64,000 nt of DNA, taken from contig JAFIFB010000076.1 of NCBI GenBank assembly GCA_020832285.1, positions 1 to 64,000 of the forward strand, written 5' to 3'. This DNA is from Balneolaceae bacterium (GTDB lineage Bacteria > Bacteroidota > Rhodothermia > Balneolales > Balneolaceae). The translations under genes and the position numbers were made by a program. The notes under the pieces are model-generated. The model saw only the letters and a list, made by a program, of their open reading frames with translations. It was not told the DNA's origin and did not search any database. Positions 6,465 to 62,136 of this stretch are shown here, piece by piece (positions within the stretch are counted from its first letter, which is position 1; each line of letters opens with the position of its first letter).

Positions 6465-7838
6465 TCAATGCGAAAATTCTGGCAACAGTTCAAAAAATCG
6501 TGCTGATGTTTTAATCCCTCTGTGAAAATCTTTCAGCGAAAAGCTTTCGTTGGGTGAGTGAAGTGCATCTTTACTGATTCCGAAACCCATTAAAATGGAG
6601 TTGACACCGAGTACTTTTTTAAAATCAGCGACAATGGGAATCGAGCCTCCCTCGCGGCTGAAAAGAACCTCTTTTTTGTAAATATCTTCGAACGCTTTGG
6701 CAGCAGCCTTTAATCCGTAAAATTCCAGGTCGATCACAATAGGGTGGCCTCCGTGATGTTCAACCACCTCAACTGAAACGGTATCCGGCGCAATGGATTT
6801 TACATGATCTGCAAACAGTTTCGCGATTTTATCAGGATCCTGGCCTGGAACCAGTCTCATACTCACCTTGGCCCCGGCTTTGGCAGGCAGTACAGTTTTA
6901 GCACCTTCACCCTGGTAACCGCTCCAGAGACCGTTTACGTCGAGCGTTGGCCGGGCGGATGCACGTTCAAGCGTGCTGTAACCTTTTTCACCGTGCAATG
7001 CATTCAGATCAAGATTTTTCTTGTACTCTTCTTTATCGAAGGGAAGCTGTTTGTAGGCTTCGCGCATTTCGGGAGTGAGTTCTTCCACATCATCATAAAA
7101 ACCTGGAATCTGAATAACGCCGTCTTCATCTTTGAGTTTTGATATCAATTCGCAGAGCACATTTGCGGGATTATCAACAGCACCACCGTAGAGCCCGGAG
7201 TGAAGATCGCGATTGGGGCCGGTGAGCAGAATTTCCATATAAGCCAGGCCCCGAAGTCCGTATGTGATGGAAGGCTGATTTTCTCCGAACATGGAAGTAT
7301 CGGAGATCAGAACCATATCGCATGACAGCAGTTCTCTGTTTTTTTTGATGAATGGAACCAGGTTCGGTGAGCCGATCTCTTCTTCACCTTCCAGGATAAA
7401 TTTTACATTCACGGGAAGTTCGGTTCCGGTTTCCATATAAGCCTGCACCGATTTAATGTGTGTAAAGGATTGTCCTTTATCGTCGCTGGCTCCTCGTGCA
7501 TACACACGGCCGTTTTTTAAGGTTGGTTCGAAGGGAGGTGTATTCCACAATTCATCGGGATCGGAAGGCTGCACATCATAATGACCATAAATCAGGACGG
7601 TTGGCCGGTCCTCGTGTGGACATTTATCAGCTGTAATTATGGGATGGCGCAGTGTTTCATGAAGTGTAACATTGTCGAGGCCGATATTCTGCAGCTGGAC
7701 AATGAGAAATTCTGCCGCTTTTTTTACATCTCCCTTGTGTTTGGAATCTGTACTTATGCTGGGAATCTTAAGCAGGTCGAAAAGTTCGCTTTCAAATGTT
7801 TGAATATTTTCATCGATAAATTTCTGTACAGTACTCAT
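6465..7838 (-). CDS. M20-family dipeptidase
   Basis: 457 aa cytoplasmic zinc dipeptidase, similar in layout to carnosinase/CNDP-type enzymes. Metal site residues are visible: H86 and D88 in LIYGHYDVQPSDP, the GEEEIGSPN catalytic and metal motif, and a C-terminal FSREGGSIPI and LHSPNESF. The lid (dimerisation) domain covers roughly residues 200-390. There is no signal peptide, so it acts inside the cell on short peptides. The gene stands alone on the minus strand. Exact peptide preference cannot be told. Confidence 0.9.
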   Translation of the reverse strand: MSTVQKFIDENIQTFESELFDLLKIPSISTDSKHKGDVKKAAEFLIVQLQNIGLDNVTLHETLRHPIITADKCPHEDRPTVLIYGHYDVQPSDPDELWNTPPFEPTLKNGRVYARGASDDKGQSFTHIKSVQAYMETGTELPVNVKFILEGEEEIGSPNLVPFIKKNRELLSCDMVLISDTSMFGENQPSITYGLRGLAYMEILLTGPNRDLHSGLYGGAVDNPANVLCELISKLKDEDGVIQIPGFYDDVEELTPEMREAYKQLPFDKEEYKKNLDLNALHGEKGYSTLERASARPTLDVNGLWSGYQGEGAKTVLPAKAGAKVSMRLVPGQDPDKIAKLFADHVKSIAPDTVSVEVVEHHGGHPIVIDLEFYGLKAAAKAFEDIYKKEVLFSREGGSIPIVADFKKVLGVNSILMGFGISKDALHSPNESFSLKDFHRGIKTSARFFELLPEFSH

Positions 7839-55553: not shown

Positions 55554-56396
55554 TCAGTCCTCCTGTTCACAAAAATCGCAAGGCATAGCGAATATTTGGC
55601 TGGTGATCCCGACCAGATATCCGTTTCCATTTTCCACATTGCCAATGTCCGGGAGTTCTTTTACCTGTGGATCCAGTGTTGGAAAATCAATCCAGTTGTC
55701 TGATGCCGAGGCAACATATAACTGTCTGTACAGAATCGTATAAGACTGTTCAAACTGTTCATAATATTGCTTTATTGTATTGGCATGAGTCCATGGATAA
55801 ATCATAGCCAAATATTCTCCCGGACTTTGTTCAGATACATATTGAATATGATGAAATACAAATCTACGAATATGGCCGGTTGATTCATTTCGAACATGAT
55901 AAATCACATTCACTTCCGCTAAATATTCAATCCCAGATATACTGGCCTCAACAATGACGCGAGGAAAGGCTGATCTGATTCTGTATACTGGTTCAGGGAA
56001 CATTGGAGGCAGCCTCACCATGGCACTGCTTGTCTGTCCATCTTCCCGCTCGGCCTTAAGCAGGTAAGGCTGCTCCGGTTCCAGAACCATAGAGGAGCGA
56101 AAGTTAAACGCATAGATACCCTCTTCATACTGAACCAGGGTATCTTGCAGCGTCTCCGTCTGGCCGCTTTCCATGTGTTGCAGCGTCACCACCGCGTCTA
56201 TGGTGGCATTTTCGTCCAAATACAGATTGTTGCGCACCTCAGAAACACGAATCCAATTGGTATCGGCCGGATATTCGAGCAAACCAAAAATTGAATAAGG
56301 ATGTGATTCACGTTCTGTGATCGGATTAAATGTCTCATCACAGCCTGCCAGAAGAATTAAAAGGCATAAAGCAAATGGCAGCAGTGTAAATTGCAA
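55554..56396 (-). CDS. DUF4249 lipoprotein (downstream copy)
   Basis: 280 aa. Lipoprotein signal LLILLAGC (lipid Cys C19), then DETFNPITERESHPYSIFGLL and repeated beta-strand patterns (VVTLQHMESGQTETLQDTLVQY, YLLKAEREDGQTSSAMVRLPP). DUF4249 proteins occur as partners of TonB receptors and may act like SusD. It follows the TonB receptor by 179 nt on the same strand. Its first ~150 residues are nearly the same as the copy at 58894-59781, while the C-terminal half differs. Confidence 0.85.
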   Translation of the reverse strand: MQFTLLPFALCLLILLAGCDETFNPITERESHPYSIFGLLEYPADTNWIRVSEVRNNLYLDENATIDAVVTLQHMESGQTETLQDTLVQYEEGIYAFNFRSSMVLEPEQPYLLKAEREDGQTSSAMVRLPPMFPEPVYRIRSAFPRVIVEASISGIEYLAEVNVIYHVRNESTGHIRRFVFHHIQYVSEQSPGEYLAMIYPWTHANTIKQYYEQFEQSYTILYRQLYVASASDNWIDFPTLDPQVKELPDIGNVENGNGYLVGITSQIFAMPCDFCEQED

Positions 56397-56575: not shown

Positions 56576-58879
56576 TCATCTCACCTCCAGTTTAATGGAC
56601 AGATAGGGCGCAAATGAAAGCTGGTCAATGCGGCGGTGGGTGGACACATCGTAGTAGAAGATGTTTGCGCGGTTGTAGAGGTTAACAGCACCAGCCTGAA
56701 TGTTTAGCCGCGTTTCCTGTAGACGAAACTGCCTGCCTGCCGAGATGTCCAGCCGGTGAAACACGGGGAGACGCGCATTATAGGGCCGGTCCATAATTAT
56801 TCTTGGTACACCAAGTTCTGTCATGATATTGGGCAGTTTGTTTTCAAATTGAATGCGGTCATCAAATCCGAAAGGCCGGGTATAGGGAAGGCCGCTACCC
56901 AGCTGCCAGCCGAGCGAGAGGCTATAGGGGCCGGCCTCTGCCGACGTGAGTGCATTGATCTGGTGGCGGCGGTCATGTGGCGGATGAAATCGCTGCACCG
57001 GCTCGCCGAACCAGGTGCTGAAATGCTCCTGGGCCGTCTCGTATTGCGTCCAGGTATAGCCGTAACCCAGTGATCCATACACCGAACTCCCTTGATACTC
57101 CACCCGTACATCCCCGCCGTACACATGGCCGCGGGCCAGGGTCAGGTCGGTGATAAACTGAGCGTTGGTACTCCATGTGGTCACCGGTTGATTACGCACG
57201 CGCTTGTAAAACCCCTCCACCGACCACTGTAAGACCGGTGACAGTGCCTGGCTCCAGCCGGCCAGTGCGTGGATGGCCTCCTTCTGGGAGCTGCCAATGG
57301 GAACCGGCATCCAGCCGGTAAAGACCGAGCTGACATCGCGGCGATCAGCCACACCCACCAGCGGCTGGCGGTAGAGCCCGAAAGCGGCGCTTAGTTCCTC
57401 CTCTTCGCGTCCGAACGGGTTCCACCGGGCACTAAACCGAGGCTCCATGCTGGCCCCGTAGCCGCCGGGAATAAAATTGAGCGCCACCCCGGGCTGAATA
57501 TGTACCCGGCTGCCCATCGGCACGGTGGCTTCCAGGTGCATACCGGCTCCGATCAGTTCCTCCACGTCCACTTGTGGAGTGAAGAACATTTCCTGGATAT
57601 CGTAGTTCAGAAATTTCATCAGAATGTAGCCGCCATAACCAACCGTGATGCGCCCTGCAGGCTGGCTCACATGGCCGTCGACAACAAATCGGTTCACCGC
57701 CGATTGCAGCTCCGAGTGGCCCACATCCATGGTATTGGATACCCGCGAAAAGTTCATACGCACATCCAGCAGTGCCCCGCTTCCTGCCAGGGCCAGGCAG
57801 CGCCCGCCCATTGTCAGATTGCCCCAGTGGACCTCGTCACCGGAGGCCGTGTCCATACGGCCGCGGTCGTAACTGTGCAGGACTGTGCCCGAACAGCGCA
57901 CCTCATCTGAGCTGTGGCTGAGCTTCAGGTAATGGCTTTGAAACTTCAAGGGCTGCTCTTCACCCAGAAATGTTCCTCCGAGATGCTCGATCAGTGAGTG
58001 GCGCACAGAGGCGATCCATGAGGATTCACCTTCCTTTATCGGACCTTCGGCCCTCAACCCGGCCACAAACGGGCTAATCGAGGCGGCGCCCCGGTTCTCG
58101 TACATGTGCCCGTCCTTCATCTGCACGTCAATCACCGATGAGACGCGCCCGCTATAGCGCGCACCGAAGCCGCCGCTGTGAAAATCGGCCACCGATACCA
58201 GATCCTCGGGAAAAGCCGAGAAGAAGCCCACAATGTGAAACGGCTGATAGATCAGCATCCCGTCCATGAACACCATATTTTGAGAGGGGGTGCCTCCGCG
58301 GATGAAAAGCTGTCCGCCGCGGTCGCCGGCAGCAACCACCCCGGGCTGGATCTGCAGGTAGCTGGCCAAGTCGCCGGTTCCGGCGGGAGTGGGTGCACGG
58401 GACAGATCGGCAGGCCGAATCCGCTGGTGACCCACCGTCTGGTTGGTTGCCCCGCCCCGAACGGTAATCACGAGGTCGTCGAGATGCTCCACGCGGGGCA
58501 ATAGGGCCTTACTCAGGGTAATGCGGCGTTCATCACCCAGATCAAGGGCTTCTTCGTGGGTGACATACCCGAGATAGGAAATGCGCACATCATAGTGGCC
58601 TGGCAGGATACCGCCGATGGAGTAAAACCCGTTTTGATCGGTGGCTGTTCCCCGGAACACCTCCTCCTGCCCGGCCTCAAACAGGATCACATTGGCTCCC
58701 GGTAGTACCTGACCCGACGAGCCGTCGGTGATAAACCCTTGCAGGCTGACGTTCTGGGCTTGGATGGGAGTGGATAGAAGGGTGAAAAATAGAAAAGTGA
58801 AAAAGAAGTACAGAACGAAATTGTGTCGCGACAATAATGGGTCTACAATTATTTTTATACTTGAATGTCTGATATTCAT
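56576..58879 (-). CDS. TonB-dependent outer membrane receptor with carboxypeptidase-regulatory-like domain
   Basis: 767 aa. Signal peptide (about 24-42, ending TPIQAQ). CarboxypepD_reg-like domain at about 45-130 (LQGFITDGSSGQVLPGANV...YLGYVTHEEAL). Plug with DLASYLQIQPGVVAAGDRGGQLFIRGGTPSQNMVFMDGMLIYQP, then a 22-strand-like barrel (length ~500). G+C is far above neighbours (40 of 60 bases at 57241-57300, against about 22 of 60 in the flanking DUF4249 gene), a sign of foreign origin or different selection. It lies 14 nt downstream of one DUF4249 gene and upstream of another. Confidence 0.92.
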   Translation of the reverse strand: MNIRHSSIKIIVDPLLSRHNFVLYFFFTFLFFTLLSTPIQAQNVSLQGFITDGSSGQVLPGANVILFEAGQEEVFRGTATDQNGFYSIGGILPGHYDVRISYLGYVTHEEALDLGDERRITLSKALLPRVEHLDDLVITVRGGATNQTVGHQRIRPADLSRAPTPAGTGDLASYLQIQPGVVAAGDRGGQLFIRGGTPSQNMVFMDGMLIYQPFHIVGFFSAFPEDLVSVADFHSGGFGARYSGRVSSVIDVQMKDGHMYENRGAASISPFVAGLRAEGPIKEGESSWIASVRHSLIEHLGGTFLGEEQPLKFQSHYLKLSHSSDEVRCSGTVLHSYDRGRMDTASGDEVHWGNLTMGGRCLALAGSGALLDVRMNFSRVSNTMDVGHSELQSAVNRFVVDGHVSQPAGRITVGYGGYILMKFLNYDIQEMFFTPQVDVEELIGAGMHLEATVPMGSRVHIQPGVALNFIPGGYGASMEPRFSARWNPFGREEEELSAAFGLYRQPLVGVADRRDVSSVFTGWMPVPIGSSQKEAIHALAGWSQALSPVLQWSVEGFYKRVRNQPVTTWSTNAQFITDLTLARGHVYGGDVRVEYQGSSVYGSLGYGYTWTQYETAQEHFSTWFGEPVQRFHPPHDRRHQINALTSAEAGPYSLSLGWQLGSGLPYTRPFGFDDRIQFENKLPNIMTELGVPRIIMDRPYNARLPVFHRLDISAGRQFRLQETRLNIQAGAVNLYNRANIFYYDVSTHRRIDQLSFAPYLSIKLEVR

Positions 58880-58893
58880 AGTTTAAATCTTCA

Positions 58894-59781
58894 TTAAGGT
58901 TGCCAACAGTTTGTGAAGCTGTTAATAAACAACTCAAAATCAAGTGTTTTGCTGACAATGCCAATAAGATAACCCGCTCCGTTTTCCACATTTCCAATAT
59001 CCGGTAATTGTGCTTCCAGTGAATTCCCTTTTGAAAAATTTTGCCATTCCGAACTGGCAGAAGCAGTATAAAGCTCACTTTGTAAGATCGTATATGGGAT
59101 GTTTTGAGATTCATAAAATCTGCAAATCATCAACCAGTGGGGGATAATATCTAACATCACAATATGTTCATCTGTCGGCGGAGGATTGTGAAACAATTGA
59201 TATCCAAGCGTATCTTGAGTATGATGAAATGTCCATTTCCTTATGGAACCGTTTCTATTATTTCGAACGTCATACGATACACTCACATCCGCTAAATGTT
59301 CAATACCTTTTAATTGCAGACGGACAACCGGCTGACCAGGCTCGATTTTGGGATCGGGAAAGTTCGGAGGCAGTGTCACCTTGGCAATGCTTGTCTGTCC
59401 ATCCGAGCGTTCCGCCTTAAGCAGGTAAGTATGCTCTGGTTCCAGTTCCATCGTGGAGCGAAAGTTAAACGCGATGATACCTGTTTCATACTGTACCAGT
59501 GAATCTTTCAGTGTCTCCGCCTGGCCGCTTTCCAGATGTTGTAGCGTTACCATCGCGTCTATGGTGGCATTTTCATCCAAAAACTGACTGTTACGCACCT
59601 CAGATACACGAATCCAATTGGTATTGGCCGGATATTCGAGTAAACCAAAAATTGAATAAGGATATGATTCACGTTCTGCGATTGGCTTAAACGTCTCGTC
59701 GCATCCTGATATTAAAATTAACATTAGAAAAAGCAAGATGATGACAATCGGGAAATGAATTTTTATAAAATCCATATTCAA
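58894..59781 (-). CDS. DUF4249 lipoprotein (upstream copy)
   Basis: 295 aa. Lipoprotein signal LMLILISGC (lipid Cys C27), DETFKPIAERESYPYSIFGLL and the same beta-strand pattern as the downstream copy. It precedes the TonB receptor by 14 nt, so the two are surely co-expressed. It likely presents ligand to the receptor or forms the lid of the transporter (inference from SusD-like placement). Codon and base use match the genome average and contrast with the GC-rich receptor. Confidence 0.86.
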   Translation of the reverse strand: MNMDFIKIHFPIVIILLFLMLILISGCDETFKPIAERESYPYSIFGLLEYPANTNWIRVSEVRNSQFLDENATIDAMVTLQHLESGQAETLKDSLVQYETGIIAFNFRSTMELEPEHTYLLKAERSDGQTSIAKVTLPPNFPDPKIEPGQPVVRLQLKGIEHLADVSVSYDVRNNRNGSIRKWTFHHTQDTLGYQLFHNPPPTDEHIVMLDIIPHWLMICRFYESQNIPYTILQSELYTASASSEWQNFSKGNSLEAQLPDIGNVENGAGYLIGIVSKTLDFELFINSFTNCWQP

Positions 59782-59790
59782 TACTCATTT

Positions 59791-59831
59791 TAAAAATAAA
59801 ACAACCCCGCAATATATCGGTGCAGGGTTGT
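59791..59831 (-). terminator. Terminator between the small secreted gene and DUF4249
   Basis: ACAACCCTGCA...TGCGGGGTTGT (one mismatch) then TTTTATTTTT on the minus strand. The loop is CCGATATAT. Confidence 0.75.
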
Positions 59832-59851: not shown

Positions 59852-60205
59852 TTAGATGGGGTTAACGGTTATATAATATTCATCTGCCCACATCCCTGAT
59901 TCTCCTTGACATTGTAATTCTACTCTTAAAAAATATCCCTGATATGGATCCCAATCGTAATTGTAGTAAGCATGAAAGTAGCTATCGGAGTTACTTGATG
60001 TACTTGTATATTGACCATATCCCCAAGGAGCAGCTGGGTTGGGTTTATAATACCATTCATATATCTTAGTCGACCCGCAACCAGTAACATTTGCAGTCCA
60101 AGTTTCGTTTTCACCATGATCAACTGTGGTTGGACCGGAAATACTAACCTGTGGTGTCATTGTTTCAACAGTATTTTCAACCTCGGCAACATCTACTTTG
60201 TTCAT
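59852..60205 (-). CDS. Small secreted Ig-like protein, body split from its signal peptide
   Basis: 117 aa from ATG 60205. It contains a PKD/Ig-like beta domain: VSISGPTTVDHGENETWTANVTG, YEWYYKP, YFLRVELQCQG and a C-terminal DEYYITVNPI. As it stands it lacks a signal peptide. Removing one unit of the 10-bp tandem repeat at 60211-60230 fuses it in frame to an upstream signal peptide (60305-60210), giving a 151-aa single protein. So the gene is either broken or phase-variable. It is upstream of the DUF4249/TonB set on the same strand, followed by a terminator. Confidence 0.7.
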   Translation of the reverse strand: MNKVDVAEVENTVETMTPQVSISGPTTVDHGENETWTANVTGCGSTKIYEWYYKPNPAAPWGYGQYTSTSSNSDSYFHAYYNYDWDPYQGYFLRVELQCQGESGMWADEYYITVNPI

Positions 60206-60209
60206 ACCA

Positions 60210-60305
60210 TTATAAGCCTGTATAAGCCTGTAAACTGATAACAGTTACAAAGAAAAACATAATTATAGAAAAAACTAATAATGGTTTATTTGATAGTGTT
60301 TTCAT
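60210..60305 (-). pseudogene. Detached signal peptide of the small secreted protein
   Basis: A 31-codon frame MKTLSNKPLLVFSIIMFFFV-TVISLQAYTGL and stop. It is a classical Lys plus hydrophobic export signal with a cleavage site near SLQA. The stop is caused by the second unit of the 10-bp tandem duplication. With one unit removed it reads on into the body. Confidence 0.75.
60211..60230. repeat. 10-bp perfect tandem duplication
   Basis: TATAAGCCTG occurs twice without a gap. The length is not a multiple of three, so it shifts frame between signal peptide and mature protein of the small secreted gene. Confidence 0.95.
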
Positions 60306-61071
60306 AATAATTTATATTAGTTATTGTTTTGTTCAGTTGTTTAAACTGAAAGCATAGAAAAGCTCCTGAATAGCTTTAAACCTCTCATTTTAAGAAAAGA
60401 TAGTAAAATATATTTAACTTAAAAAAATATTCCCGCTTTTCTTTGTCATTTTTGGTTGTATTAATGCCCGTGGACTGCTTAGTTGCCTCAAATTGAAAAC
60501 GAGACAGATTTTATTCTATAATCATACTTTTTGATGGACCAACCGGTCAATAGCTAAGGCAGATCTCACCATATCTTTAACAATATTATGGGTTCATAAT
60601 TTTAGATTGGTATTTTCGAAGTTAGCATCAAACTGTCACGCTCATACCGGTTGGAGGGTAAAATAACGAGCATTTTCATTTCCTCCCGGCTTGCGCACAA
60701 TCCAGCCCCATATTAACGCATGGAAAACTGCTCCGAGGCCATACTGTCGTGTGAATACATCATTAAAAAATTTTAAATACTGACTTATAGGAAAGTCAGT
60801 TCGATTCCCTGATTTTGCCCAAAAGCGTGGCAACACTATTTAAACTATTTAAAAGGTGCCAGAAAGTTACTATCATCCGATATATAGAAAGCAGCTCACC
60901 CCTGCACGTAGTAGACCTTCAGTTAGTGTTATCCATACCTGTGATCGAGCCTTATTCTGCACCTTGAGTCTGTTGATTTGGTGGTCCTTTGGGAAACCCG
61001 TCTGGTAGTTTTTACTGCTTCCCGGTGATTGTCGCAATTGCCGTAACCTGAGTTTCTAACCTTTGTTCATA
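60306..61071. other. Long intergenic region before the beta-propeller gene
   Basis: A 766-nt AT-rich gap. A minus-strand frame (60642-60836) translates to a short stretch with WGWIVRKPGGN that I do not recognise; it may be a gene remnant. No RNA gene or strong repeat seen. Confidence 0.35.
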
Positions 61072-62136
61072 ATGATCACAAAAAAAACACGACGGGACTT
61101 TATCAAAACCAGTACAGCAATTGCAGTTGGAAGAGTACTGCTGCCCCACTTTAACATTTTAAAAAGCAAACCAAAACCTGGTGATGATATTCTCGGGCAT
61201 GGTGAATTCAGATACCGTGTTCATAAAGAATGGGGCAATCTGGATGCATCAGTAACACCGGTAGATAATTGCCATGAAATGGTGATGGACTCCAAAGGGC
61301 GATTGATCATGATTACAGATGAAGTCCGAAATAATATCATCATTTATGATAAATCAGGCAGGTTGCTGGACAGCTGGGGTGATCAGTTCCCGGGTGGGCA
61401 TGGCCTGAGTATATTCAATGAAGGAGGCGACGATTTCCTTTTTATTACAGATACAGAACAGGGAAAGGTCTTTAAAACTACAACAGATGGCAGAATTCTG
61501 TTTACAATTGAACATCCGGTCAATGTCGGTGCCTATGAACAAGACAACTCTTTCAGGCCTACTGAAACAGCCATAGCTCCGAATGGCGACATTTATGTGG
61601 CGGATGGATACGGTTCGCAATACATTTTACAGTATAATTCAAAAGGGGAGTATATACGGCATTTTGGCGGTCCCGGTAACGATGATGATAAATTCAGCGT
61701 GGCACACGGGGTTTGTATTGATGACCGTGATAAAAATAATCCAACCTTATTGTGCACCTCCCGAAGCCATAATTCGTTCAAACGATTCACCCTGGATGGC
61801 AAATATATTTCCACGATATTTTTGCCGGGTGCATTTGTGTGCAGAGCTGTTATTGACGACGGGAATATCTATTCAGGTGTTTGCTTTTCAAGGCTTCGGT
61901 ATTTAAATGTGACCGAAAACTCCGGATTTGTTACAATTCTTGATGAACATGACAAGGTTGTTTCAAATCCTGGAGGTACCGAACCCACATATCGTGACGG
62001 TGAACTACAGTTGATGGTTCAGGAAACACCTGTTTTTCATCATTGCCATGATGTTTGCATTGATGAAGACAAGAATCTGTATGTTTGTCAATGGAATGCC
62101 GGAAAAAGCTATCCTTATAAACTGGAACGAGTATAA
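61072..62136 (+). CDS. Tat-exported six-bladed beta-propeller (NHL-like) protein
   Basis: 354 aa from ATG 61072. The twin-arginine signal TRRDFIKTS is near the N-terminus. The repeats then have the form GRLIMITDEVRNNIIIYDKSGRLLDSWG, FLFITDTEQGKVFKTTTDGRI, GDIYVADGYGSQYILQYNSKGEYIRHFGG, typical for NHL or SMP-30-like propellers. The end has HHCHDVCIDEDKNLYVCQW. Secreted or periplasmic folded protein, with no assigned catalysis. It is 16 nt upstream of a secreted M20 enzyme, so the two probably form an operon. Confidence 0.83.
   Translation: MITKKTRRDFIKTSTAIAVGRVLLPHFNILKSKPKPGDDILGHGEFRYRVHKEWGNLDASVTPVDNCHEMVMDSKGRLIMITDEVRNNIIIYDKSGRLLDSWGDQFPGGHGLSIFNEGGDDFLFITDTEQGKVFKTTTDGRILFTIEHPVNVGAYEQDNSFRPTETAIAPNGDIYVADGYGSQYILQYNSKGEYIRHFGGPGNDDDKFSVAHGVCIDDRDKNNPTLLCTSRSHNSFKRFTLDGKYISTIFLPGAFVCRAVIDDGNIYSGVCFSRLRYLNVTENSGFVTILDEHDKVVSNPGGTEPTYRDGELQLMVQETPVFHHCHDVCIDEDKNLYVCQWNAGKSYPYKLERV

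Follow-up and report, generated by a model that had tools for sequence, protein, structure and literature searches.

A small gene encoding an exported Ig-like protein is split, in the Balneolaceae genome analyzed here, by an exact 10-bp tandem duplication located between its signal peptide and its Ig-like body. We read this locus as a recent frameshift allele, that is, a young pseudogene produced by ordinary decay, and place the probability of this reading at roughly 0.78. The locus lies in a 64,000-nt stretch of DNA (hereafter, the window), on which an earlier note had proposed that loss or gain of one repeat unit switches export on and off, mentioning simple decay as its alternative; it is the latter that best fits the evidence presented below.

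Anatomy of the split gene

The features on which the analysis relies are the following:

56576-58879, minus strand: TonB-dependent receptor gene (CarboxypepD_reg and Plug domains), syntenic with G017:C478
58894-59781, minus strand: DUF4249-like lipoprotein gene, next downstream of the small gene; closest relative in G017, 80% over its C-terminal part
59794-59831, minus strand: intrinsic terminator of the small gene, with an 11-bp stem and a T-run
59852-60205, minus strand: Ig-like body, 117 aa, in the frame of the signal only with one repeat unit absent
60210-60305, minus strand: signal-peptide ORF, 31 aa, MKTLSNKPLLVFSIIMFFFVTVISLQAYTGL, with its TAA inside the second repeat unit
60211-60230, minus strand: exact 10-bp tandem duplication of CAGGCTTATA, two units, with a 2-bp TA microhomology at its ends
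60835-60853, strand not assigned: 9-bp tandem duplication, independent of the 10-bp one, in a non-coding dispersed repeat; a homologous copy (L150) has a gap of 9
61063-62136, plus strand: gene for a 357-aa NHL-repeat (beta-propeller) protein, on the opposite side of the small gene and syntenic in G017

Read on the minus strand, the duplication consists of two adjacent copies of CAGGCTTATA (60230-60211), which on the plus strand corresponds to TATAAGCCTG at 60211-60220 and 60221-60230, exactly where the earlier note had placed it; a further copy of TATAAGCCTG at position 7436 is unrelated to the tandem pair. The period-10 identity reaches 2 bp further left, yielding a 22-bp run (60232-60211) of 2.2 units. 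The signal ORF begins with an ATG at 60305 and runs for 31 codons to a TAA at 60212-60210, and its product presents two Lys residues in the n-region, a 15-residue hydrophobic core reaching a KD value of 3.0 and a cleavage-like SLQA end. The body frame (60205-59852) comprises 117 codons with no internal stop, the chance of such an open frame being ~0.0003 at the local base composition. Removal of one unit (454-10 = 444 nt) joins signal and body in a single frame of 147 codons plus a stop. The claims that the two-unit form terminates the signal ORF and that the one-unit form encodes a single exported protein are thus both upheld, with a computed product of 147 aa instead of the 151 aa originally given. 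A 12-match run at period 10, together with the joining of the signal to a homologous frame upon removal of one unit, indicates a real duplication rather than a chance repeat.

The duplication is the sole lesion in the gene. As in other pseudogenes, the frame of a recognizable gene is interrupted, with the signal frame stopping in the second unit and the homologous body lying in another frame, and the evidence supports the view that signal and body once formed a single exported protein, which the duplication divided. The terminator downstream of the body was missed by a pattern scan and found by its folding energy (-16.8 kcal/mol, z -5.0); its strength argues that the gene was a complete small transcription unit. 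The ancestral gene would have encoded a stand-alone secreted protein of 147 aa, in which a short linker connected the signal peptide to a single Ig-like domain, and would have formed a transcription unit by itself, terminator included. The gene does adjoin a TonB/DUF4249 locus, as had been noticed, with the DUF4249-like gene next downstream and the TonB-dependent receptor gene beyond it. Two DUF4249-like paralogues (55554-56396 and 58894-59781), which are 60% identical, lie on either side of the receptor gene.

The Ig-like domain and the remnant in a related genome

The body was compared with the genomes of the family by single-sequence and profile searches. As a single query it matched sequences in 22 of 92 family genomes, and a domain profile extended this to 28 of 92, both counts including the window's own genome. 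The closest relatives in the single-sequence search were found in G017 (E 4.6e-13) and G030 (E 6.5e-9), and the profile recovers the window's domain at E 5.2e-30, the window itself being part of the alignment. Nearly all examined matches are C-terminal-side domains of S8 subtilases, metalloproteases or PGAP1-like lipases, names that were assigned by inspecting the sequences, and they have in common the pattern SISGPxxxxxGxxxTWTA...YxWYY. Compared against the PDB, the domain profile retrieved, at 1e-4 to 1e-3, an Ig-like protein (9d7z) as well as phage decoration proteins. Pfam yielded no match to the body at gathering score. An AlphaFold model built from the single sequence was poor (pLDDT 53), was used for strand content only and gave weak structural matches to Ig folds. 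The Ig-like assignment made in the earlier note is thus supported at the profile level, the single-sequence fold being of poor quality. The window gene shares with the Ig/PKD-like accessory domains of Balneolaceae S8 subtilases, metalloproteases and lipases both a homologous domain and an exported context; whereas those domains sit in enzymes, here the domain stands alone and immediately follows a signal peptide. The window's own genome contains no close paralogue; the profile gave a single remote match there, within a 601-aa frame of contig C62. A contig scan with the body alone as query returned no relative.

Among the genomes of the genus that were compared, the locus is present in only one other, the MAG Balneolaceae bacterium CSSed162cmB_94 (G017; locus contig SLGL01000032.1), and the remaining 26 lack the gene. 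The syntenic neighbors in G017 are the 357-aa NHL gene, the TonB receptor gene, the DUF4249 paralogue and an M20 peptidase gene. Between the NHL and TonB genes lies a remnant of the small gene, consisting of the linker and ~50 Ig-domain residues (54% amino acid and 76% nucleotide identity), whose 5' frame is shifted and in which no signal peptide or matching start could be recognized. The rest of the body, its 3' half, was lost together with the DUF4249 gene in a deletion that extends into the TonB frame. The nearest relative offers a truncated remnant in place of the full-length protein that had been suggested as a check, and the G017 copy is decayed by lesions that are unrelated to the 10-bp repeat. 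Two further genomes considered for synteny, G005 and G016, were set aside, as the surroundings of their 357-aa homologs are different and include neither the Ig gene nor the TonB pair.

Following the deletion, the Ig remnant and the TonB receptor share a single open frame in G017:C478 (L062, 7375-9318; 647 aa from its ATG). The C-terminus of this receptor is unlike the window's, and the receptor gene may be broken as well. On G017:C429, a DUF4249 gene (L063, 551-1186) is an apparent chimera of the window's two DUF4249 paralogues and adjoins an ORF resembling a transposase helix-turn-helix protein.

Genes carrying the same Ig domain are also broken elsewhere in the family, where S8 or metalloprotease genes present an apparent frameshift (L055 in G075), a large deletion (L056 in G072) and several frame breaks (L048 in G068). 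Loss of such secreted genes therefore recurs in the family.

Constraint and origin of the duplication

Comparison of the window gene with the G017 copy identified 7, 7 and 7 changes over the three codon positions and a dN/dS of ~0.83, a value that rests on 39 alignable codons and to whose divergence the G017 copy, itself a wreck, contributes much. The corresponding values for the neighboring genes are 0.20 (TonB), 0.07 (NHL), 0.35 (DUF4249 paralogue) and 0.07 (M20 peptidase). The ratio of nonsynonymous to synonymous changes in the small gene differs from that of the TonB gene (Fisher p = 0.004) and does not differ significantly from that of the DUF4249 paralogue (p = 0.14). Relaxed constraint on the small gene is suggested by this small sample. 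Neutral drift at ~0.125 substitutions per site, the window's half of the divergence, would leave the frame open only 9-11% of the time. Since the window's frame is open but for the duplication, the gene was probably under selection until recently and, since the remaining frame is intact, the duplication is probably a recent event on the window's branch. The independent loss of the signal region and the 3' half in the nearest relative points to a gene that was probably dispensable already.

The TA microhomology at the ends of the repeat suggests an origin by slippage, in which the TA ending CAGGCTTATA would have paired with the TA just before it, so that the 10 bp were copied twice. The resulting frameshift brings in a stop four codons past SLQA, and translation would yield a 31-aa peptide but no Ig protein for export. 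Since two perfect units can be reduced to one by the same process, rare revertants would be expected; nothing indicates selection as a switch. The locus in this respect resembles frameshift pseudogenes formed by short tandem duplication, with a single indel not divisible by three, a duplicated unit, microhomology at its ends, an intact remaining frame and a remnant in a relative, and no notable difference from pseudogenes formed by slippage was found.

Short tandem duplications also arise nearby where there is nothing to switch, as illustrated by the 9-bp duplication in non-coding DNA ~600 bp away from the 10-bp one. At 60790-60854, the minus strand carries one of ~20 genomic copies of a short dispersed element (consensus about CTGTCACCTTTGAAATAGTGTTGCCCCGCTTTTGGGCAAGATTAGGGGCTTGACAG), which contains an internal stem (TTGCCC/GGGCAA), has the ends CTGTCA/TGACAG and looks REP- or MITE-like. 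In addition, ~220 bp of non-coding DNA (60808-61027) are 81% identical to G000:C98:19134-19347, and a more extensive dispersed element, or what is left of one, may thus be located upstream of this gene. No credible match was obtained in an Rfam search.

Alternatives to decay

An error of sequencing or assembly would mean that the real genome carries one unit and a normal 147-aa gene. The perfection of the remaining frame and the draft status of the assembly (130 contigs) are compatible with such an artefact. Errors do not, however, usually take the form of short exact 10-bp duplications, a 22-bp run is far below read length, and the G017 ortholog shows real decay at the locus; we regard an artefact as unlikely.

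Under the switch put forward in the earlier note, loss or gain of one 10-bp unit would determine which cells of a population export the Ig-like protein. In its favor are the two perfect units, which form a 22-bp run able to contract by slippage, and an intact body that the one-unit form places in frame. Two considerations weigh against decay: a gene that is switched off yet maintained would look alike, its frame being open save for the duplication, and an indel exactly between signal and body occupies a tidy position for a switch. A precedent is provided by capsule phase variation in pneumococcus, attributed to spontaneous tandem duplications within cap3A, cap8E or tts (Waite et al. 2001, 2003, cited in PMC4022640), which makes a switch mechanistically possible. 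In those capsule genes and in the window gene alike, a perfect tandem duplication breaks the reading frame and is in principle precisely removable; the pneumococcal variation, however, was reported from culture, whereas the window offers one allele from one genome in a gene that looks dispensable. Tandem duplications in Xenorhabdus lrp, in turn, were plain mutations and not phase variants (PMC6786866). A literature search on bacterial switching by 10-bp duplications found nothing closer than these two cases, and among the papers searched none combined Balneolaceae and phase variation.

Several observations run counter to a switch. A phase-variable contingency locus is expected to contain a hypermutable tract of several units and to be otherwise maintained in relatives, but there are two units here and the sole relative with the locus harbors a signal-less, truncated remnant, destroyed by other lesions. 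No one-unit allele was found among the genus genomes, which represent one genome per species. Exact tandem repeats whose unit measures at least 10 bp are rare in the 768 kb sampled from this genome and not in clear excess (3 observed versus ~1.4 expected from composition), and switching by tandem duplication as a genome-wide device was rejected, since at 10 bp exactly 2 were observed versus 1.0 expected. The constraint on the gene appears weak or absent at the codon level, and a comparable duplication occurs in the nearby non-coding DNA. The proposal is therefore not supported, and a phase-variable export switch appears improbable; that a minimal two-unit duplication, placed exactly at the signal-peptide cleavage region, reversibly toggles export of the small protein is more doubtful again. 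If true, the contingency locus would be of unusually small size, and the literature searched contained none for this family.

Translational coupling, with termination at the TAA (60212-60210) and restart at the ATG at 60205, would yield a cytoplasmic body and make the split functional. Only 4 nt separate the stop from this ATG, with which the body ORF starts, but the ATG also fits an internal Met of the ancestral protein, the family members are C-terminal-side domains of exported enzymes, and an Ig domain lacking a signal would end up in the wrong place; we find coupling scarcely credible. Ribosomal +1 frameshifting to rejoin the frames was rejected upon inspection, which revealed neither a slippery P-site (UUA to UAU) nor a prfB-like context.

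Read as decay, the locus would cleanly illustrate the loss of an exported protein through one slippage event, and it carries a caution: a two-unit repeat between a signal peptide and the body that follows it is, by itself, no switch.
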